NCBI GenBank assembly: GCA_001577715.1
Contig: LQAA01000091.1
Span: 1 to 64,000 of the forward strand
Origin: Candidatus Adiutrix intracellularis
Lineage (GTDB): Bacteria > Desulfobacterota > Desulfarculia > Adiutricales > Adiutricaceae
Length of the DNA stretch: 64,000 nucleotides
Direction: 5' to 3'
Shown: piece after piece, positions 276-63,705 of the stretch
How positions within the stretch are numbered: position 1 is the first letter of the stretch
How the letters are laid out: every line of letters begins with the position of its first letter
The notes under the pieces: model-generated
Databases searched by the model: none
Seen by the model: only the letters and a program-made list of their open reading frames with translations
What the model was told of the DNA's origin: nothing
Translations under genes and position numbers: made by a program

Positions 276-3146
276 ATGGGTAAAAAGAGAATTCACGAAT
301 TAGCTAAGGAACTGTCTTTAACCAGTGCCGAACTTATCCAGAAAATTTTGGAGTGGAAGCTTTTGCCTGGGGTTAAACTAGTGGCTTCTAGTGGCTTGGA
401 AGATTATTTAATTGAAGATATAGCTCGGCGTCTTGGTTCTTACAAGGAAGCTACTGAACCTACCATTCCTCAAGTTATTCGTCGTCGCAAGAAAAGCCAG
501 AGTGACCTTCTTAAACCCGCTTCTTTTGAACCAGCCACCGGAGCCCCGATTGAAGAAGACGTCGTCTCTGCCGTTGCCGCTAAGCTCGTTGAAAAAACCG
601 CCATCCCGCTTAATTCAGCCATTTTAAATGTTCAGGTAAAAAAAAACGTGTCTGCAACAGTTATTTTTAAACCAGCTTTAGTTCCCGATTTTAAACAATT
701 ACAACCTAATCCTTCTTCTCCGTCCAAAGATATTCAATCGGAGACCCCACCGTCGGATTTGGCTGTGGGCCTAATCGAAGGGGTTCTACCGTTGGCTAAA
801 GCGAAGGTAGCGACTGAACCGGGGAAAACAGCCCAGTTGATGCTCCGCAAAGTTACTCGCGAACTCTCAGATCCTCCAGCCCGCATTATTCCTCCGCCTA
901 AAGGCAACTTCGATGCGGCTAGAGTGGTGGGTAGCAAGCCCAATTGGAAAGAAACTCCGGTTGTCCCCAAACCGGCGTTTAATTCCTCCGTTTGCCGTCC
1001 GACCGGGGGGGGAGGTGAGGGTAATCACCCTCGAACCGGTGATTTTCGTCGTTCTGATTCCGTTCCCGTGGTTACAGTTTCACTCCTGGAAGCCGAGGTA
1101 ACTCGTCGTCGGGATAAGAGGAAAAAAAGTCAGACTGCCGGACGTTTCGAGGCCGATGATAATGCCGGGGCTAAACTTAGTCGTCGTCGAAATGTGGTGG
1201 AACGGACTGACCTCTATTCCGAAGGTGACTGGGAAAGAGTTCGCCGCCGGGGTAAAAATGTTAAAAAAGCTAAGGCTAAAACCGAAATAACGACTCCGAA
1301 AGCCATTAAACGTCGAATAAAAGTGGATGAAGTAATTACTGTTTTTGAATTAGCTCACCGACTCTCTATTAAAGCTGGTGATATAATCAAAAAACTCATG
1401 AGTATGGGGGTTATGGCCGGTTTAAACCAGGCTCTGGATTTTGATACTGCAACTTTGGTGGCTGCCGAATTCGGTTATGAAGTAGATAAATCAGCCTTTG
1501 ACGAGGAAAATATTCTCAATTTGGAATGCCAAACCACTTTACCAGAGACTGATCGGCCGCCGGTGGTAACCATAATGGGTCATGTCGACCACGGTAAGAC
1601 CTCTCTTCTGGATTATATTCGTAAAACCAATATTCAAATTGGCGAGGCTGGGGGTATTACTCAACATATAGGTGCTTACCATGTCCAAGCTGGTGGCCGT
1701 AATATAACTTTTTTGGATACTCCTGGTCATGAAGCTTTTACTTCTATGCGGTCGCGGGGTGCTCAAGTAACCGACTTAGTTGTGCTTATCGTAGCCGCCG
1801 ACGATGGGTTAATGCCTCAGACTCGGGAAGCCGCCGATCATGCTAAGGCGGCTGGCGTGCCTATTCTAGTAGCCGTTAATAAAATAGATAAGCCCGGGGC
1901 CGATGCTGAAAAAGTCCGTCGGGAGATGATGGAGATCGGTTTAGTGCCGGAAGCCTGGGGCGGTGATACCGTTTTCGTAGAAATATCGGCTAAGACCGGT
2001 AAGGGAGTAGCCGAACTTTTGGATATGATTCTTTTGCAGGCTGATGTTCTAGAACTTAAGGCTCGGCCCGATGGCCCAGCCCGAGGCCGTATTATTGAGG
2101 CTAGGTTGGATAAGGGCCGCGGTCCGGTGGCCACTGTTTTAGTTCAGGAAGGCTTATTAAGGCAGGGCGACGCTTATGTTTGCGGTGTTTTTCACGGGCG
2201 CATCCGGGCTATGCTTGATGATCAGGGTGATCGGGTGTCTGAAGTTGGGCCGGCTATTCCTGTGGAAGTTCAGGGCATCAGCGGTGTGCCCCAGGCCGGT
2301 GATGAATTCATAGTGCTGGAAGATGAAAAGCAGGCTCGCCAAATTAGTCAACACCGCCTTTTGCGTCAGCGGGAAAGCGAATTGATTCAGACTTCTAAAC
2401 TCACTCTGGAAAACCTGTTCGATAATATCAGGGCTGGGGCTATCAAGGGTTTGAACTTAATTATTAAGACTGATGTTCAAGGTTCTCTAGAGGCTATTGT
2501 TGATGCGGTGATGAAGCTTTCTACTCTGGAGATGAAAATTAACATTATCCATCAGGGGGCTAGTGCGGTTTCTGAAACTGATATTGTGCTGGCTTCGGCT
2601 TCTAACGCCCTGATTATTTGTTTCGCGGTACGCCCTTCCGTTAAGGTTCAGGAACTGGCCGATGCTGAACATATCCAAATCCGTTATTACAATGTTATAT
2701 ACAAACTTATTGATGACATTAAAGAAGCCATGGCTGGTCTGCTTGACCCAGTTAGGAGCGAAAAAATTCTGGGTCGGGCTGAAGTACGGGCTATTTTCGT
2801 AGTTAGCCGGGTAGGTACGATTGCCGGTTCTTATGTGCTTGATGGTAAAATTGTGCGCGGGGCTAAAGCCCGTTTGCTACGTGATAGCGTGGTAATTCAT
2901 GATGGCCGCTTATCTTCTCTGAAAAGAGTTAAAGAGGATGTCCGCGAAGTGGCCGCTGGTTACGAGTGTGGGATAGGCTTTGAAAATTATAACGACGTTA
3001 AAGTAGGCGACTTAGTTGAGGTCTTTCATGTCGAAGAAACAGCGGCCACAGTTGAACTTATAGATGAAGCTGTAGCCCGGGCCACCAAAGAAAAAGAACG
3101 TACGGTTCGAGCCGAAGAAATCCAAGACGAGGGAGCGGTCCGTTAG
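276..3146 (+). CDS. infB: Translation initiation factor IF-2
   Basis: 956 aa; [29 protein letters not shown] GTPase motifs; IF2_N segment ([27 protein letters not shown]). Confidence 0.98.
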
Positions 3147-10880: not shown

Positions 10881-11719
10881 TTTAGAATGGCATCTATAAA
10901 TATGGATTATGATAGCTGACTAATGTTAATATGTTAAGTAGTAAATAATATTTATATAGTCACATATTTACTGTAACAATGTTATTTTGGTATCGTAATA
11001 TTAATATTTTATTGCACTTTTACTTGTGGAACTTTAGGTTGAATTGAACTTCCAGCTGCTTTTTTCTATAATACATTAAAATTATGATTAAAATATATCT
11101 TTAATTGCAATATAGATGCCTATTTAAATGATATTTTGTTATTGACTTGTACCAGCTATTTTATTATTTTTTAATCATGGATATAGATTTGCTACTAAAT
11201 CGTAATTTATCTTCGGCTATTCTCTTGTGCTAATTATACTGGGAAAACGAAAAGATCAAAATGAGAACATTAGCCATCTAAAAATTAAGCACTTTAGCCA
11301 CCGAGTTTAAAGTTAAAAGCATTGATAAGAATGGACCTTTATACCGTTATGGATTAGTTTTTTGGATTATTAGGATAAAATTAAGAATAAGCTGGTTAAG
11401 TGTTTTTTGCATCTCGTCAATTTGGCTTATTATGATCTCTTCTCAAGTTATATTGAGGTGAGTGTTAAATGTTGACCTAATATAGTTAAAACCGCGATAA
11501 AGCGTGGTAAACGGCAAATTAATTATTGGCTTCTAACCGATAAGTACTGGCATTCGATATCAGTAAAAGCTTGCCCTGAAAATACTTCCGATATCACAAT
11601 TTTATTATCGCCTTGCATTTAATTTCAATTCGTGGGTTAGTTGAGAGTAAAAATCTACGATTAAGTTTTTTTTGTGAAAGTAATTTGTGTTAGTTTAATA
11701 TTTCAAGCGATTTTTCTGG

Positions 11720-13060
11720 AGAACGGTCAATTACTTTATTCATCTTATGAAGTTGAAAGTAGTGGCAGCCATAAGGGTGTTAATATTATCTCCCAGGGTT
11801 TCTTTTAGGGAGCTTCGAAACATTCAAATATCTAATTTAAGATATCTAATAATTGATTTTATTTCACATGTTGTTTATTTTGGTTTCTATTTTTTTATTT
11901 TGTAGGACCGCTAATTTTATGACCTTAATTTTTTAATGTTAATATTTGGGCTCCTTTAACTATTTTGCGACTTTGATAACCTTAGGCACAAATCTTTAAA
12001 TCTGATTAGTGGTTTACTTTTTTAATTATTTATTGGATTGTATTGCCAAGTGTGTTACCATTGTAGAGAGTTCGGCCAAAATCTTAGCAGCTATAATCAC
12101 ATTGTTAGTTTTAGTTATCGTTATTGAAACTTTCGAATCAAATTCATAGTTCTTGTGCTTTTTACTTTTAGTTATGCAGAGTATTTTCGGTTCATGTAGA
12201 CTATAAATTTTATTTTATCTTTTTATTATTAGGTTAAAATATACTCGAAAAATTTGAACTATTTCTGATAAAATCCTAAAATAACTATTAATTTTTTTAT
12301 TTAATTTACGGAATAATGTTAAGACGATAGCTTTAAGGCGGCTTTTGATTCTCTTTATTTCTTTATTCTTTATTCTTTATTCTTTATTAGGGCTTCTGCA
12401 GAAAGTGATCATTCTGATGAATTTCCTTATCTCTTCTCCGTAGTTACGGTGTAAAAGGAACTCTGTAGAGTATATTATATTTCAGAGTTAAGTTATCACT
12501 TTTAGTTGTAACTTAGAATTAGTTTGAGGAATAATATTTTTTATTGGCTGGTGGTGTTGAAGAGAGCTTTCTTCTCAAGTGTTTTCTCTCCATATAATAA
12601 AATAGAAGCCTTGAATATTTTTCCAACCCTCTAACTTCAACGCGTTGACGAAAAATAAGTTAAATTAAATAACGCAAAAGGCACGGTTCGTTGAAAGGTT
12701 TTCTCTTTACAAAAATATCGAAAGTGGGAATTGTGGTTCCACTCTTAAACAACTTCCTCATCGTTCAATTTTTTAAATTATTATATGGTTAATATTCTGT
12801 ATAATAAACGAATATTTTTAGCTGGATATCCTTGGTTAGGATAATATTCTTAAAGCTATTGCTCTAAGAGATTCTATAGTATTTTTTCAATTAGTTATGA
12901 GTACGCATCTTAAAGATTAATTTGCTTCAGCAAATTTTCCTTGAAAAAACGCTTTACTTTAATTATGGTGATGGTATTCTTATACATCCTTCGAAGAAGA
13001 GAATATTTCGATTAGGGTTTAAAGTAAACCCAGGATTGCATGGTTGAAATTATATTATAA
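11720..13060 (-). pseudogene. IS5-family transposase relic (copy 1)
   Basis: Aligns by eye with 37.5-38.55 kb over most of its length; about 330 bp extra at 11.8-12.13 kb. Minus strand carries the same eroded IS5-like frame. Confidence 0.65.
12352..12389. repeat. 7-bp tandem repeat (TTTATTC)n
   Basis: ctttatttctttattctttattctttattctttattag, about five units. Confidence 0.8.
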
Positions 13061-13980
13061 TTACTATAATTAATTAAAAATCAAGTCATTAGTATGTTTT
13101 AAGAGTCGGCCAAATAAATACCGCATGGAAAAGCATTCTTAATTTAAAGTTGAAGACGATAACCTCCTTTTTTTTCGAAAGAATAAAAGTATTGTTGCGG
13201 AAGCTATTTTTTATGGTATCTATATTATCAGAGTTTTGATCGTGCCGAAAAAAATGAACATCGAAGATTGTGGTTGCAGTTATAAAAATTATCACAGGTG
13301 TAACGAACTTTACGTACGATGAAAAATATTGGTAAAAAAATAAACCAATTTATCATTATATGGAATCGAAAGTTCGGACGCATTTATTTTTGTTTATGTT
13401 GACCTATTACATTAGATAGCATATGTACGAGGTGTGGAGAGAATTAACTTTTTATTGATGGAGAATTATTTTAAAAAGGAACCTGCGACCTCGTAGTGTT
13501 GATATAAACCTTAGATAGTGACAAACAAAAAATAATAAAGAGAATGATGAAGGATAAATTCCCTTGTATATTAAGGAGCTTTAAATACTGTATTTTATAG
13601 TTTACTTGACTTCGTGATTATAAGGGAGCATATTTTTATGGTGATGTATAATTATAGCTTATTTGATAGTTGTTGTGAATAGGTACCGGAAACGTTTAGT
13701 CTCAGTCGTTCTCTGTCTAAATTCCTTTATGGAGTCAAAAGAATCTATAAGGAATTTTTTACGATTTTCAGGTTGATATTTTTTGGGTAGTCTTACTGGA
13801 GTTCAAGATACACTCTAATTTAGGTTGTCTAAAGTAGACGAGTTTATAGTCTTATTTTGTTTAGTCGTATCGTTTTTTGTATAAACTCTCCCCTTTTTAC
13901 GTTCGGACAGTGAAGTTGTATAGTAGAGAAATTAAACTTAGTGTTTATTTTTTTTGTGCCCCCGGTTTTAAAAAAAAATC

Positions 13981-14009
13981 TTGACATCATTTTTTTTTCC
14001 ATTTATAAT
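13981..14009 (+). promoter_or_regulatory. Consensus sigma-70 promoter upstream of rho
   Basis: TTGACA (13981-13986), 17-nt spacer, TATAAT (14004-14009); all 12 bases match consensus. Confidence 0.75.
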
Positions 14010-14237
14010 ACTAAAAAACACGTCAGATTCCATTCTATCGGTGTTCAGATTTCAGCTAAAACTGAAACTAAAAGCCGAGTCTCTTGCAATTTTTCTGCTT
14101 CTTAAAATGTCAATCTGTAAGGAACTCCGAACAACGGCCTGCCGTATTTCTTTGCGAATATCTTAATTCAGGTATAGAATAGGGTCTCAACTATCGCCTC
14201 GTACTGAACCGACGGGGTTAATTTTCCAGGAAAAAAT

Positions 14238-28124: not shown

Positions 28125-28599
28125 GGATACCCTCCCCTAAACTTAATTTTATATGAAAGTTATTTTCAGTTTATATTGTGGCGTTATAATACTTAAAATA
28201 ATTTTCTATTGCAACCGGGTTATTAATTTTAGGGTGTAGAAAATAAGCACTCTTAGTTTTTGAAAATAAGGACTATTTCTGAGCTTATAATGCCGGCGGT
28301 ACCGCTATTTTATTCTTCCGCGCCCAGCTTGAGGCTTAGGTTGGAGTTAAACCGCTGTAAGTAAGTATTTAAATAAAATTGTCTTGGGAGTAAAAGAGGC
28401 AGTACCGTCAGAGTTGTTGTGGAATTCGGACTATTTTTTGGCCACGATCGGTAGCAGGTTAAAAGGGAAGGTAATTTTGTTTAAAAATATCTTGCAACTC
28501 AATTTATTTTTTATTATGCGTTTAAGTTTTAAAAAATTACCAGTTATTATAGTGATAGGCATTTTTTAGTTTTAGCTCTAAGTCAAAGAAGCTTATGAA

Positions 28600-29000
28600 T
28601 GTTAAAATGATGAAGGATTACCAATCGCGTTAAGAAGACATAAGGAGACTGTCCGAATGGATAAGAGTAGTTTAGTACATATGAGATGAAGGTATAAGTA
28701 TTACATAGTATTTGTGGCGAAGTATTGTAGGTAAGTGACCTACGGGAAGTTCAAAGCCAATGTAGGTAAAATAATTATGTGGATCATATGAAAAGAAAAG
28801 ATTGAGAATAGCAGAGGTTAAGTGTTATTTTGATCATATCTATATGTTTATAAAGATATTGGCGAAATACAGTTCATAGGAAGTAACGGGTTATCTGAAG
28901 AGTAAAAACTTACTGATAATATTTAATAGCTATATTAACTTGAAGTATAAGTTTACGTACCCTCGTGTTAAGCATCTTTTTAATTAGTTTTATATTATTT
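28600..29000 (+). pseudogene. IS200-type (Y1 HUH) transposase relic, copy 1
   Basis: atggataagagtagtttagtacatatgagatgaaggtataag...catatctatatgtttataaag matches the 33.8 and 62.5 kb copies by eye. Confidence 0.7.
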
Positions 29001-32662: not shown

Positions 32663-33769
32663 TCACCCACCTCCGGTTTTAGTTTTTAGTGCGGCTTTCA
32701 GTTTTAGCCGGCTTAGTTAAACTTATTATAACAAAATTGCCCGTCGCGCGAAAGGATGGCTCTGAAATACAAATCTGTTAAATAGGTAAATATATGGTTC
32801 ACTTGATGGAATAAGACGCCCGTGCCGCTGGGTATGTGTATTGGTTTTTGTATAATAATTGTTTTTTTAGTGACCAGTTTTCCTCTTAATCGTTTTGAGA
32901 TAGCGATAAATAGATAGTTCGGAAATTTTAAGATGTTAAGTTAATTCACTTATGCTTTCTTTGCGGTTTTAAAAAAATATTTATATGAATTCCGTAGAAT
33001 TTCTATTCTGTCGCTTTTAGTTAGTTTATTAGGTATGCACCTAGTGCGGATGCAGAAGTTATAGATGGTCTTACTGAGTTACGAATTTATAATGATATTA
33101 AGATATTTAATTTTATTTAAAAGGAAGGTTATCGCCGATAGATACCTGGAACTGGTAGACTTACCTGGCGATGATGTTAAACTGTTGGGGGAATTATTGG
33201 GAGGAAATGCGGTAGTTAACCGTTATTGCGTGGGTTCTCTGGCGGTGAATGCTTTCACCTTTTTGATGGGTGAACTTTTTGGTGCTCTTGACGAGATGAT
33301 CTGTGTCCGGCAGTTGTGGTAGAGCGGTGGCGAGGTGGATAAAAATATGCTATTCTTACATATTATGTAGAAGAGACGGTTATATTGGTCGACAGAATTA
33401 TTTTTTTTGGGGTATATTTAGGTCGGATAGTACTCGAGGTACCGGTCGATCTTTCTTGATTCCACTTTCGCAATATCACCTTTTATCACGAATTGTTTGT
33501 ACTTTTGCGTAACGAATTACTGTGGGTCTTGAATTAAGTGGGGGGGGGTAATATTTCAAATTCTGGGATTAGGTGAGTGAAGGGAAAGTGCTTTTTTAAA
33601 AAATTTTAAATAAAAGGAATAATTCAGGTTCTAATTTATGGGGTGCTGGTGCTATTTTATGTGTTTAAGCTCGAAAACCACCAGTTATACTGGAGTTAGG
33701 CACTTTTTAGGTTTAGCTCTAAGTCAAAGAAGCCTTTGAATGTTAAAATGATGAAGATTTGCTAACTAC

Positions 33770-34383
33770 ATCAAGAAGACATAAGGAGATTGTCCAAATG
33801 GATTGGAGTATTTTAGCACAGACGAGATGGGAACGTAAGTATTATATAGTATTTGCGTCTAAGTATCGTAGGTAAGTGATTTATGAGAAGCTCAAGGTTG
33901 ATGTAGACAAAATATTATGTGAATTGTGTGAAAGGAAAGGGTCAGAAATAATAGAGGTGAAGTGTTGTCCTGACCATATCCATATGTCTGTAAAGATACT
34001 ATCGAAATACAGTGTATTAGAGGTAATAAGTTATCTGAAGGGTAAAAGTTTACTAATAACATTAGATAGGCATGTTAATCTGGAGTATAAGTATGGCAAT
34101 AGATACATTATTGTAAGTATTATATTGATATAGCAGATAAAAATGCGAAAATAATAGTGAAATATGTCAGGAATTAATTACGGTAAGACTTAACGGCTGA
34201 CTAATTGATACTGAAGGAATATATTGATCTATTTACGGGTAAGTCGGTAAATAAAAGCAAAAAGGAAGAGTCCCTTAGGAGTAAGCCTATTAACTGAAAA
34301 CCATTTAGCACGCTCTTAGGCGTTGCCGTACCAATCCCTTATAGGGGTGAGCAGATCACTCGCCTAGCAGGTAGTTCTGATTT
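33770..34383 (+). pseudogene. IS200-type transposase relic, copy 2, with right end
   Basis: ORF 33876-34133: ...EVKCCPDHIHMSVKILSKYSVLEVISYLKGKSLLITLDRHVNLEYKYGNRYI is TnpA-like with the HIH catalytic motif; frame broken both ends; right-end hairpins to about 34383. Confidence 0.85.
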
Positions 34384-34608
34384 TCTCCCAGGTTAAAACC
34401 GCAATGCATTTCTATTTTCCTTTCAGATTTAACTTTTTTTTATAGCTTACATTATTTATTTCCTGAATTCAACCTTAATGCGTCAGAGTCTATTTTGGGA
34501 TATAAGAGATATTGTCGTAAATCAAATTGAAAGTAGCGAGGTATTGTGGCATAATAAATTAGAAGTTATTTTAGATATTGGTTGCTTATATAGTAGTTCG
34601 GAAATGAG

Positions 34609-34683
34609 GCTGGCGTAGCCCAATGGTAGAGCACCTGATTTGTAATCAGACGGTTGTAGGTTCGATTCCTATCGCCAGCTCCA
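34609..34683 (+). tRNA. tRNA-Thr (anticodon TGT)
   Basis: GCTGGCG...CGCCAGC acceptor stem, anticodon loop TTTGTAA, GGTTCGATTCC T-arm, encoded CCA; one C-A mismatch at the outer anticodon-stem pair. Confidence 0.93.
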
Positions 34684-34960
34684 ATCAGGATCACTCGCTC
34701 AGTGAGTGGTTCGCTTACCCCTATAAGGGGTTAGTACGGTAGCGTCTGAGGCCGTGCTAAATAGTTTGCTAAGTGCACCATGTTAATAGTTTTACCCCTA
34801 GAGGGGTTATTCTTTTTTGCCTTTATTTATTGGCTCCCCCGTAAACGGGTTAGTGTATTCTTTCAATCTGTTGTGCGTAAATTCAAGAATCTGCGTGAGA
34901 TAGGAGTGATTCGGCGTATAGACTCTGATCAGGCGGGCTATTAGAAAGTTACTAAATAAA
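34684..34960 (-). mobile_element. IS200-type right end in inverted orientation (hairpin array)
   Basis: Reverse complement matches 34.18-34.38 and 62.9-63.12 kb, including the eroded transposase C-terminus; contains ACCCCTATAAGGGGT and ACCCCTAGAGGGGT stem-loops. Confidence 0.7.
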
Positions 34961-35259: not shown

Positions 35260-35288
35260 AACCGCAGGCTTAGCTGGGCGGTTTTTTT
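35260..35288 (+). terminator. Intrinsic terminator/attenuator-like hairpin upstream of trpE
   Basis: AACCGC-aggcttagctgg-GCGGTT followed by TTTTT; 27 nt before the trpE start. Confidence 0.5.
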
Positions 35289-35314
35289 GTGCCCGCCTTA
35301 TAAGGAGAATGATT

Positions 35315-43700: not shown

Positions 43701-45410
43701 TGCCTTACCCTGAGCTTGGCCGCCGTTATTTTAGGTAAGGTCTGTTGATTCTACCGGTTCCGTTTGTAAGCAGCCGTGATTTTTAGTTATCTCCGGTACG
43801 GATTAGTGGTACTGCCTCGGATAAAGAGGTTCCCAACCAAGTAGCGGTTATGGTTATTTTATTCGGTCTGAAGCTCACGAGAAACCAGCTGGGTTAGGAA
43901 TTAAGGTTTTTTTGCGACGGTGTCTCGTAGCTGAGTCCTTTTGTTTCAGAGCGACGGCTCCACCTTAGATTTGCTACTTTAGGGTTTTTAAAATTCCGGT
44001 ACTTTTTAGCGGGCTGAAACTTACGCCCGGTCGCTAGCAAGCTATTTTTCCGCTGATTTTGTCAATTGCAATTAGGTTCAGTCTTTCGTGGGTCAGGCGG
44101 TTTAGTAAGTATAATTTTTAAAGGGGTTGGCATGAAACTAATCAGCGCGACTTAGACCTAAATTTTTTCCACTATTTCTGTTCATTGGTTTGGTGGAGTT
44201 TTTATTTTTACTGGTCATTGTTTTCTTCGGTGCATTTGATAGTTCGGTTATAGTCCTGAAAAATTATTCTGTCGTAGTGAAGTTCGCCTTGTTGGTTCCA
44301 GTTTTGGTTCCGGCCACTCTCTATTTTAAAGATAATAAATTTCCTCTGGAAAAATCTGCCAATCTAGCGGATTTATTGGGGGTACTGGGTTCTTCGAATT
44401 CGGTTGAGAAAGGTTTTTGGGGAAATTATTTTTTACTGCGGCCTAACCAGGATTTTTAACCTTTCGCCCGGAAGTTATGTCAGTTTATGCTAAAATATTA
44501 GCCAATTTCAATGGGCTGGGTGGTAGCCTTAGTGAAGGGCTCCGTCGGCTCTAGAGTATTTATCCGATTATCTCGGATGTTTACATGTAGACTTTGTGAT
44601 GATATTCAGTCGTGCGCATCGTGGTGGAGGAAATCGGGCCAACGCGGGAACTAGTCAGTTATATTTTATGGAATCTGTATCTTAATATTGCCGCTTTCCG
44701 TTCCGGCTTTGTCAGTCGCAATGTGACTAATTGGGATCGCTTAATTAACTAGTCGTTTATTCACTAATTTGAGTCTGGACAATAGCGCGCTGGTCATAAT
44801 ACTTTTGTTTGATTACCAGAATCTGACCGATCTTCCCTCCGAGGTCTTGCTTTAGATCCAGAATTGACCGGAACAGAGAAATTACTTAGATTTTCCGCCC
44901 TACGGTCGCTCGTTTTACTAGGCCGCCAGTCCTATGCCTGGGAACTACTCTCTCGTTAGATATCCTGATGGTTAGAGAAAATCTGCCAGGACTAGACGAA
45001 GCGGTTTTGATTAAATGGCTGAAAATAGATACGGTTGCTATAGTCGGTCTTATGGATGCGTTTAATCTAAATCTTAGGGTGAGCGTACCGAGGCTGATTG
45101 GTTAACCTTATTCAATACCACCTGGTGGTGTTTTCCAGGGATCCTGGTCAGCGTCTATAATTATAGCGACCTATTTATATACGTAGCTAGGTTTTTCTAA
45201 CCAAAGCATCAGCAACTTTTTGGCCACTTTGACGAAAGCCTTTGCAGCCAATATCTTTTTCTTCGCTATTTCGGTTGCTTTGGCGCCTGAAAGAGGCGAA
45301 GCGTCGGGCCCGTTCCGTGGGCTGGAGACGCCGGTGCCGCTGATTCGAGATTTTATCGGGTTTAATTTAAATTTCTGGCGGTAGATGAACTAGTTTATAA
45401 AATTTTGTAA
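40790..45410 (+). pseudogene. Block of eroded protein-coding sequence (unidentified)
   Basis: Less AT-rich than IS relics; broken plus-strand coding-like runs, e.g. GQPVFLVKLVGNNSNLWARRLIEVVVTTEGRWKVWAASFHRCL, VRIVVEEIGPTRELVSYILWNLYLNIAAFRSGFVSRNVTNWDRLIN; only short ORFs remain. Confidence 0.45.
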
Positions 45411-45424
45411 TTAACTATGGGGCG

Positions 45425-45692
45425 TATTTTTTTTGCAGGTGAAAGCTTCAAAACTGAGTAGTAAGAGATATGCTTGTTTTATATAGGAAGAGTTGATAGT
45501 CTAGCGTAAAAATTGGAAGAGGGAGTACTTCCTCATGGTGCAAATGGTATTAGCTGTCCAGATGCGCTCTGGTCAATTACGCCTAGTTTCAGAACTGGTT
45601 TCCTGAGTAACGGTCCTGTTCAGAAGCAAAAAACGAATGGTTCACTCAGCCAAATTGTTAGCAAGCTCAATTTTTAAGTTAGTGATGAGGTG
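45425..45692 (-). mobile_element. IS66-family C-terminal end fragment, left arm of an inverted pair
   Basis: Reverse complement matches 46.36-46.62 kb; shared with 25.48-25.72 kb and in part with 55.94-56.1 kb. Confidence 0.8.
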
Positions 45693-46129: not shown

Positions 46130-46620
46130 AGTTCGAAGTTATGGATTAAAGCTTCTGTGACAATTGTGATGTTTATTTTAACTTCATTATCGGTTTAGAA
46201 TGAAAATTGATGTAATTATATACAACAAATTGCAAAAATGCGGAAAACGTTTACGAAATGAGATCTTCAAGGCTCTAGCGGTAAAAGAAGCCGAAAACTT
46301 AGCCAGGCATTTCCGCAAAGATAATGGTTACTATCCGTGCTTAATCATTAAATTTAAAAATTGAGCTTACTAATAATTTGGCTGAGTGAACCATTCGTTT
46401 TTTGCTTCTGAACAGGACTGTTACTCAGGAAATCAGTTCTGAAACTAGGCGTAATTGACCAGAGCGCATTTGGACAGCTAATACCATTTGCACCATGAGG
46501 AAGTACTCCTTCTTCCAATTTTTGCGCTAGACTATCAACTCTTCTTATATAAAACAGACATATCCCTCACTATTTAATTTGGAAACTTTTACCTGTATAA
46601 AATATGTCCTGTAAATGATT
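46130..46620 (+). mobile_element. IS66-family C-terminal fragment, right arm of an inverted pair
   Basis: Plus frames: CGKRLRNEIFKALAVKEAENLARHFRKDNGYY..., TNNLAE.TIR..., TQEISSETRRN.PERIWTANTICTMRKYSFFQFL, matching the IS66 C-terminus (EPTNNLAEQAIR...TQGTRSE.G..W.ERIWTV..TC..QGRS.FEFL). Confidence 0.85.
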
Positions 46621-46846
46621 ACAAAGACTTGTTGGAAATAAATTGTGTTTAAAAATACTGAACAGTAGTATTATTGACTCTTAAGATAGTGCTTTAGGAT
46701 TTATCTTTAAAAATATTTTTTATTTAATATAATTATCGAATAAAGTATTTTACAAAATTATTTAGTCTGGTTATTGCTCTTTTTGGATTTTAGATAAGTA
46801 CTTTAAAATTATACTACTCTGGCTTTAAGCCTGAAAGGATTAACAA

Positions 46847-55319: not shown

Positions 55320-55630
55320 ATTACATATTCACTAGTAGGAATTTTATGATGAGACTTTTTGCTTACTAAACGAACCTAAAATTGTAGCTAAGAAAGTATT
55401 TTATTGTAATTATTGTAATTATTATAGAAACATGATAAGTATTTTTATTAATTTTTTTAAATAACTAATTTTTTAATTAATATTTTGGAAGTTTGACCAA
55501 CATAATAAGGAACAGAGAAAACTATTTTAGTTGATTAATATTATAATTATATAATATTATTACAAAAAATTATTACCACTAGAAAAACTAAAAAAATGAA
55601 ATTGTTCCTAATGAATGTGTGATTAATTTT
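55320..55630. repeat. AT-rich dispersed repeat, copy 1
   Basis: Shares ordered blocks (gtattttattgtaattattgtaat, ttttttaaataactaatttttt, attaatattataatta, aaattgttcctaatgaatgtgtg) with 62.11-62.42 kb. Confidence 0.65.
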
Positions 55631-62109: not shown

Positions 62110-62425
62110 TATACACTCGACAGGAGAAATTTAATTATTGGACTTTTATACTAATCAAATAAATCTAAAGTCATACCTAAAAGAGTATTTTATTATAAAA
62201 TATTATAATTATTTATAAAAATAAGGGGATTTTTTTTGTTAATTTTTTCTAACTAACCAAAAAATTGACCAGTATTTTTGAAGATTAACTAATATATTTG
62301 GTGAGTAAAAGAATTTGTCTTAATGGACTAATATTATAATTACGTATTATTAAGTATAAAAAAATAACGTTATTAGAAAATTAAAAAAATTAAATTACTC
62401 CTGATGAATATGTGCTGACGTAGGC
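62110..62425. repeat. AT-rich dispersed repeat, copy 2
   Basis: Matches 55.32-55.63 kb in ordered blocks; lies just before IS200 copy 3. Confidence 0.65.
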
Positions 62426-62469
62426 GTTTTTTAATTTTAGCTCTAAACTGAAGTAGCATCTGAATTTTA

Positions 62470-63121
62470 AAATGATGAAGGTTTGCTAATTGCATCAAGA
62501 AAACATAAGGAGGCTGCTCAATTGGATGAGAGTAGCTTAGTACATACGAGATGGGAATGTAAATAGCATATAGTATTTGTAGTTAAGTATCGTAGGTAAG
62601 TAATCTAGAGGAAGGTTGAGACCGATATGGGTAAAATATTGTATGAATTATTTGAAAGGTAAGGTTTAGAAATAATAGAGGCTAAGTGTTATTCTAATTA
62701 TATCCACATGTTTATGAGAATACCACTGAAGTATAGCGTATCGAAAATAATGAATTATTTGAAGGGTAAAGCTCATTGGTGATATTTGATAGGCATGTTA
62801 GTCTGAAGTATAAGTATGGCAGCAGGTACCTCTGGTGTTGTGGGTACTATATGGATACGTTAGGTGAGAATGCAAAAAGGATAGTGGAATATATTAGGAA
62901 GCAATTATGGGAAGATCTAACAGTGGACTAGCTGATGGTGAAAGAATATGTTAACTCGTTTACAGGTGAGGTTGGTGAACAAAGGTAAAAAGAAATAGCC
63001 TCTTTGGGGGTAAGTTTATGAACATAATGTACTTAGTAAACTATTCAATACATCTTCAGGCGATACCGTACTAACTCCTTATAGGGATTAGTAGACTACT
63101 CGCTGAGCGTGTAGTCCTGAT
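62470..63121 (+). pseudogene. IS200-type transposase relic, copy 3, with right end
   Basis: ttggatgagagtagcttagtacatacgagatgggaatg...ttatatccacatgtttatgagaatacca...ggtaccgtactaactccttatagggatt...gtcctgat, matching the 33.8-34.38 kb copy. Confidence 0.8.
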
Positions 63122-63705
63122 ACGGGAGGATAATGCTTTATAGCATCATCAGCTATCTCCGTATCTCATAGCCATAAGAGTTAGTAATATATTTATTTCT
63201 GCTATCTTTGGGGACATAGTAGCAGTCGGTAATATCAATATTTTATAAAGGTTACACGTCGATGTTATGGCCGAGTTTATTCTAATAAGGAGAATAATAG
63301 TTCGTTTTGTCGTACTCCGGCTTTTCTCCGACAAAGTTTTTATCTTTTTCGTTCAGAGCATTGGGTTCATAGGTAATGTAAAAGGGGGAGATATATTCCT
63401 TTTTGGCTAGGGTACGTTTCAAGATGTTATTTTTTTTGCGCTCATTGAGATTGCTATCCTTCAGGGACTCAAAGGCCGAAGCCAGTATTTTTGAGGTTAC
63501 TCGGGCGCTTTGCGGTTCTACTCTGATTTTATTTTTGTAGCTGTCCGTTATTTCCTGGGCCAGGTTAAAGATGTTATTTTTAGATACTTCAAATAGTTTG
63601 TTGGAAACAACCATAGTTAGGGCCATAAAAGAGATGATTATCATGTTCGAAACTAGTGAGAATACTTTGGTTTATAGGCTTATGTCTTTAAAAATAATGT
63701 CACCC
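63122..63705 (-). pseudogene. Methyl-accepting chemotaxis protein, N-terminal sensor relic
   Basis: Minus ORFs MIIISFMALTMVVSNKLFEVSKNNIFNLAQEITDSYKNKI...YITYEPNALNEKDKNFVGEKPEYDKTNYYSPY resemble a TM plus Cache-type MCP sensor domain; cut off at the IS200 right end. Confidence 0.6.

Follow-up and report, generated by a model that had tools for sequence, protein, structure and literature searches.

The window, by which we mean the whole stretch of 64,000 nucleotides analysed from Candidatus Adiutrix intracellularis, contains a tRNA-Thr(UGU) gene located between two opposed IS200 right ends, both of which converge on the tRNA, as a preliminary description of this DNA had proposed. The features considered in this work are the following.

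28514-28956, forward strand: IS200 relic D, 3'-truncated, with the left end and most of tnpA and no right end (element profile)
33657-34382, forward strand: IS200 relic A, full length, decayed (nhmmer with iterated element profile; Y1_Tnp and IS200 family matches; translation)
34262-34382, forward strand: right-end hairpin module of relic A (covariance model, 41.6 bits, E 1.8e-6)
34527-34555, forward strand: sigma-70-like promoter of tRNA-Thr, TTGAAA-17-CATAAT (promoter scan; upstream sequences of relatives)
34609-34683, forward strand: tRNA-Thr(UGU), anticodon TGT, CCA encoded (ARAGORN; Rfam tRNA, 66 bits)
34683 to about 34890 (inner limit approximate), reverse strand: IS200 relic B, inverted, 5'-truncated (repeat and profile comparison, translation, covariance model)
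34688-34712, reverse strand: HP4, terminal hairpin (putative TnpA recognition palindrome), followed by the ...CCTGATT cleavage end (fold; family alignment)
34717-34731, reverse strand: HP3, ACCCCT-TAT-AGGGGT, family loop CTTATAG (family alignment)
34731-34760, reverse strand: HP2, TTAGCACGG..CCGTACTAA (family alignment)
34794-34818, forward strand: HP1 plus T-tract on the tRNA strand, ACCCCTAGAGGGGT plus TATTCTTTTTT, intrinsic-terminator-like (terminator scan; hairpin comparison; family-wide motif)
34838-34849, reverse strand: CCCGTTTACGGG hairpin within the tnpA coding tail, PFTG codons (translation)
62411-63121, forward strand: IS200 relic C, right end at 62990-63122 (profile and covariance model)

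The gene at 34609-34683 was the only UGU tRNA-Thr matched in the assembly (own-genome matches; 2.07 Mb in 154 contigs searched), and the relatives L081 and L084 both have a GCATAATA-type -10 at a similar distance 5' of the tRNA. The tRNA has drifted from its relatives, with compensated changes in the T-stem and one D-stem change that leaves a C-A mismatch. The TnpA frame of relic A was disrupted by an in-frame stop and frameshifts. Relic B retained only its right end plus the final ~20 codons of tnpA (RLKEYTNPFTGEPINKGKKE, the TnpA C-terminus in translation); it was considered a 5'-truncated IS200 because homology ends at ~34890. The tRNA-side module (~185 bp) displayed 70-74% identity to the sequence after the relics at 34.2-34.4 and 62.9-63.1 kb, and a covariance model of the module, built from relatives of the IS200, matched 34683-34815 on the reverse strand (E = 1e-9) and 34262-34382 and 62990-63122 on the forward strand (2e-6 and 2e-10, respectively). 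The earlier statement that one module follows the forward-strand relics at 34.3 and 63.0 kb and recurs inverted at 34.68-34.87 kb was thus borne out. A "sandwich" of convergent ends as a designed unit was rejected, one end belonging to a full-length relic and the other to a truncated one; given ~48 copies in 2 Mb, finding two ends a few hundred bases apart is unremarkable. Other repeats were also present in the window. An insert of ~300 bp (62115-62414), with a 71% identical copy at 55334-55621, split the left end of relic C, and the closest pair among the window repeats was an inverted repeat of 277 bp and 89% identity (45404-45680 and 46351-46625), probably another mobile-element relic.

The hairpin array is of a known kind, the right end of a decayed IS200, ordinary although elaborately folded, and we are highly confident that it represents the standard right end of a TnpA-only IS200/IS605 element. 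DNA similarity revealed ~35 occurrences of the module in the genome, and the genome-wide covariance model, a kind of check suggested earlier, 48 (E <= 0.01); every aligned genomic copy ran into IS200 sequence wherever this was intact. The transposase is a Y1 HUH TnpA of IS200 type: the relic in the window scored 47.7 bits with PF01797 (over the cut-off) and 50.3 bits with NF033573 (just below the cut-off of 55); for an intact sister copy, the scores were 142.3 and 157.9 bits, respectively. Four intact copies, 99.3-99.9% identical over ~745 bp, occurred in the sister genome G002, which is of the same genus and whose IS200 TnpA shares 99% identity with the TnpA of Deltaproteobacteria bacterium Smac51 (cockroach hindgut), a strain related to Candidatus Adiutrix, a genus of termite-gut symbionts. 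In G002, the ~745 bp element has a single tnpA of 158 codons and displays, in this order, a left hairpin, tnpA, a 129-nt segment containing the four hairpins seen here, and the terminus CCACCCGCTGAGCGGGTGGTCCTGATT. The intact sister element thus carries TnpA only, in ~0.7 kb and with no TnpB. Intact copies have subterminal hairpins at both ends (left, AACCACCGGC..GCCGGTGG; right, HP4) and no terminal inverted repeats, and left flanks, as seen in filled sites, end in T-rich TTGT-like tracts.

Among the 80 relatives fetched first in the scan of named genomes (TnpA identity 73-85%, nearly all Firmicutes), 71 presented a recognisable right end, located 107-213 nt past the tnpA stop and mostly at 125-148 nt. 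TnpA coding sequence lay directly upstream of all 30 covariance-model matches fetched from eight Firmicutes genomes, and solitary or MITE-like modules were rejected because all of these matches adjoin TnpA; a few same-genus matches with no detectable TnpA were decayed, truncated or at contig edges. The "oversized IS200 end" of the preliminary description is therefore correct, but it is the normal end for this clade, the array being present in intact sister copies and in ~70 relatives.

All the hairpins named earlier were found (34688-34712, 34717-34731, 34731-34760, 34794-34807, and 34838-34849), the last of them, CCCGT-AA-ACGGG, lying outside the end proper, in the tnpA coding tail, where its ...PFTG... 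codons are still coding in intact relatives. The fold of 34684-34822 surpassed 200 of 200 shuffles (z -3.4). The inverted right end had been placed one base past the CCA, which was incorrect, since the element starts at A34683, the terminal A of the CCA itself. In those relatives where the end was placed, elements finish in TGATT or TGACT (TGTTT in one) with unrelated bases beyond; because these ends precede unrelated bases, the terminal T is part of the element and its complement in the window is A34683. The overlap of relic B with the CCA, as predicted from the family-wide element end, is of one base, and the right terminus TGATT falls on the complement of the last CCA base, so the CCA was preserved. 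At this position, beside the 3' end of tRNA-Thr, the minus-strand IS200 would have inserted as single-stranded DNA. Relic B later lost its left portion and, with it, most of tnpA.

The structure of the module is real and covaries. In an alignment of 43 distinct 3' regions (A1), 95% of the cells in HP1-HP4 were paired and 18 of the 23 pairs had changed on both sides. The covariation score reached 0.455 vs. 0.157 after shuffling, a test that is inflated by relatedness, and vs. <0.09 in slid controls, which keep relatedness. The HP4 helix (columns 148-156/161-169) was 100% paired, HP3 (126-130/134-138) 97% and HP2 (95-99/104-107) 94%, with all pairs changed on both sides in the last two (5/5 and 4/4, respectively); an outer helix around HP2 (GUUGGC/GCCAGU) was weaker, with 81% paired and mostly one-sided changes. 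Column 148, the first base at the foot of HP4, covaried with column 175, the fourth base of TGA(T/C)T (A-T in 34 cases and G-C in 9, with no exceptions). Such pairing would be the signature of cleavage-site recognition by IS200/IS605 TnpA: HP4 would act as the TnpA-binding hairpin, with the nucleotide at its base pairing with the TGA(T/C)T cleavage site, and a cleavage site apparently read by a guide at the hairpin base is in agreement with assignment to the IS200 group. In IS608 and ISDra2, base pairing with a short sequence determines which site TnpA uses (PMC5934647), and the known guide-to-cleavage-site recognition of IS608 (PMC5934647, PMC7290912) follows the same logic as the covariation observed here. 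G-U pairs outnumbered A-C mismatches by 25:6 in HP1-HP4 on the tnpA strand, a biased ratio, the structure having been derived on that strand; this suggests that the tnpA strand is probably the folding one. Folding of the tnpA strand fits mRNA and top-strand DNA alike. The "structured RNA" of the preliminary description thus holds as regards structure, and the module may act as RNA or as single-stranded DNA.

HP1, together with the terminal lysine codons of tnpA, forms a hairpin and T-tract directed against tnpA. This antisense terminator motif appeared in 52 of 62 relatives vs. 3.0 expected from shuffled sequence, although shuffles destroy the hairpin and the consistent T-tract on that side is more telling than these counts. 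At 34794-34818 the hairpin is G+C-rich and is followed by the T-tract on the tRNA strand, which is the sequence pattern of an intrinsic terminator. It is located 110-135 nt past the CCA, directed away from tRNA-Thr, and HP1 with its T6 is the nearest terminator-like site 3' of the gene. The hairpin energy of HP1 in relic B was the second of 30 copies, a rank not significant by itself. Situated at the tnpA stop, HP1 would shield the IS200 from transcription entering via the right end, and in relic B it would end the tRNA-Thr transcript instead of a native terminator.

The comparison of tRNA-Thr context among relatives, also suggested earlier, revealed a hairpin and T-run within 60 nt past the tRNA in L081, L082, and L083, and no native hairpin and T-run within the same distance at the window locus. 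No clear nearby terminator was seen for the relative L084 or the sister tRNA L085, so a tRNA of this kind may do without a close one. The terminator scan was limited to loops of up to 9 nt and therefore missed the terminators of L082 and L083, which were recognised by folding, and the trp-leader hairpin at 35260. The latter (35260-35289, AACCGC..GCGGTT followed by T7) lies just 5' of trpE (35309) and is probably the terminator or attenuator of a trp leader. Because the HP1 terminator faces the tRNA and the native hairpin and T-run are missing here, we consider it likely, on balance and within our overall explanation, that tRNA-Thr has captured the transposon's terminator; some tRNA 3' end must be made, since this seems to be the sole UGU tRNA-Thr. 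With regard to the "captured tRNA terminator" mentioned previously, the capture is thus plausible, an antisense intrinsic terminator now facing the tRNA, but a tRNA terminator was not the origin of the module.

The surroundings of IS200 elements pointed to an insertion habit. An intrinsic terminator occurred directly upstream of the left end in 38 of 60 left flanks (L062, L066, L070, L073, and L089-L167; the 60 include related copies and are not fully independent) vs. 4.6% of random nearby segments, and in 3 of 54 right flanks. Each of the four intact copies in G002 was located directly behind an intrinsic terminator, and in the genome of the window the left flanks were T-rich, several of them resembling terminators. 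Since the elements favour sites directly behind host terminators, their insertions would be mild. Relative L081 displayed an A-tract right after the CCA; an A-tract at this place is a T-tract on the opposite strand and would explain a minus-strand insertion exactly at the tRNA end, the left side being gone in relic B. In the literature searched, which lay outside most subscription journals and ISfinder, no description of IS200 homing to terminators was found. A bolder reading, which we consider less probable than not, is that throughout the family the right end forms a covarying module of four hairpins that does more than bind TnpA (at least an antisense terminator, possibly also a stable RNA), and that these IS200 elements home to the T-tracts of host intrinsic terminators, bring their own and can replace that of the host, as at tRNA-Thr.

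It could well be, although we would stop short of calling it probable, that the inverted right end is a fossil with no role for the tRNA, whose transcript would end further on or be matured by RNase processing, the perfect hairpins simply reflecting a young insertion. The genome is full of decayed IS200s, several with a nearly intact HP1, and close to the tRNA of one relative no obvious terminator was seen. Against a passive relic, the native terminator is gone, HP1 with its T6 is the nearest site, and what is apparently the sole UGU tRNA-Thr needs a 3' end. An independent structured RNA, omega-RNA-like or regulatory, that the IS200 would carry as its 130-nt 3' module is a reading that we regard as unlikely. 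The covarying multi-helix architecture and the conserved linkers, which extend far past the terminal hairpin even in enterobacterial IS200, and the G-U to A-C asymmetry on the tnpA strand (25:6) would agree with such an RNA, but the asymmetry does not single out RNA, because the same strand is also expected to transpose as single-stranded DNA. Moreover, the element has no TnpB, a search of the module from the window and 13 relatives against Rfam gave no family for it (only STnc490, at the other end), and HP1 is more simply read as an antisense terminator. A TnpB omega-RNA element was discarded, TnpA being directly upstream in 30 of the 30 Firmicutes matches fetched.

That the module is tRNA-derived or tRNA-associated and was picked up by the IS200 is scarcely conceivable: the copy studied here adjoins a tRNA and another is separated by 3 nt from a tRNA-Glu, but nearly all copies are far from tRNAs and the module belongs to IS200 in unrelated phyla, and intact IS200s carrying it away from tRNAs ruled out this origin. 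The second case (L024; G000:C14, ~11093-14201) has an IS200 at 962-1639 (forward strand) inverted behind tRNA-Glu(CTC) at 1630-1705 (reverse strand), with its AATCA terminus 3 nt past the CCA and HP3-HP4 deleted.

Compared with known elements of the IS200 group, the window copies are decayed and one of them is truncated. IS1541C and an E. coli plasmid IS200 resemble them in TnpA family, size, and hairpins near both ends, and in the right-end HP2-HP4, the CTTATAG loop, and the ...GCTGGCAACAG... linker; they lack HP1, whereas the clade studied here and the Firmicutes elements have HP1 with the antisense T-tract at the tnpA stop. The IS200 of Smac51 (plasmid CP026659.1) is an intact version from the same genus, the plasmid TnpA being 99% identical to the G002 query; in contrast to relic B, it is located directly behind intrinsic terminators and not at a tRNA. 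IS608 and ISDra2, of the IS605 group, carry TnpB and omega-RNA, which the IS200 elements described here do not. STnc490 (Rfam RF01405), or 5'tnpA RNA, of Salmonella IS200 is a structured RNA at the left end and 5' leader, not at the right end (PMC12594629). Although described from Salmonella, it also matched Firmicutes IS200 5' leaders (L098, L158, L123, L089, L162, L117, and L131), one of them above the gathering score.

An odd-looking array has thus been explained as a normal transposon end, with its boundary corrected. A conserved antisense terminator is part of the right end in this IS200 clade and provides a testable point on a common element, and an IS200 at a tRNA may replace the host transcription stop with the transposon's own. 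The conserved antisense terminator, the possible homing to terminators, and a tRNA apparently dependent on a transposon terminator are worth following up.
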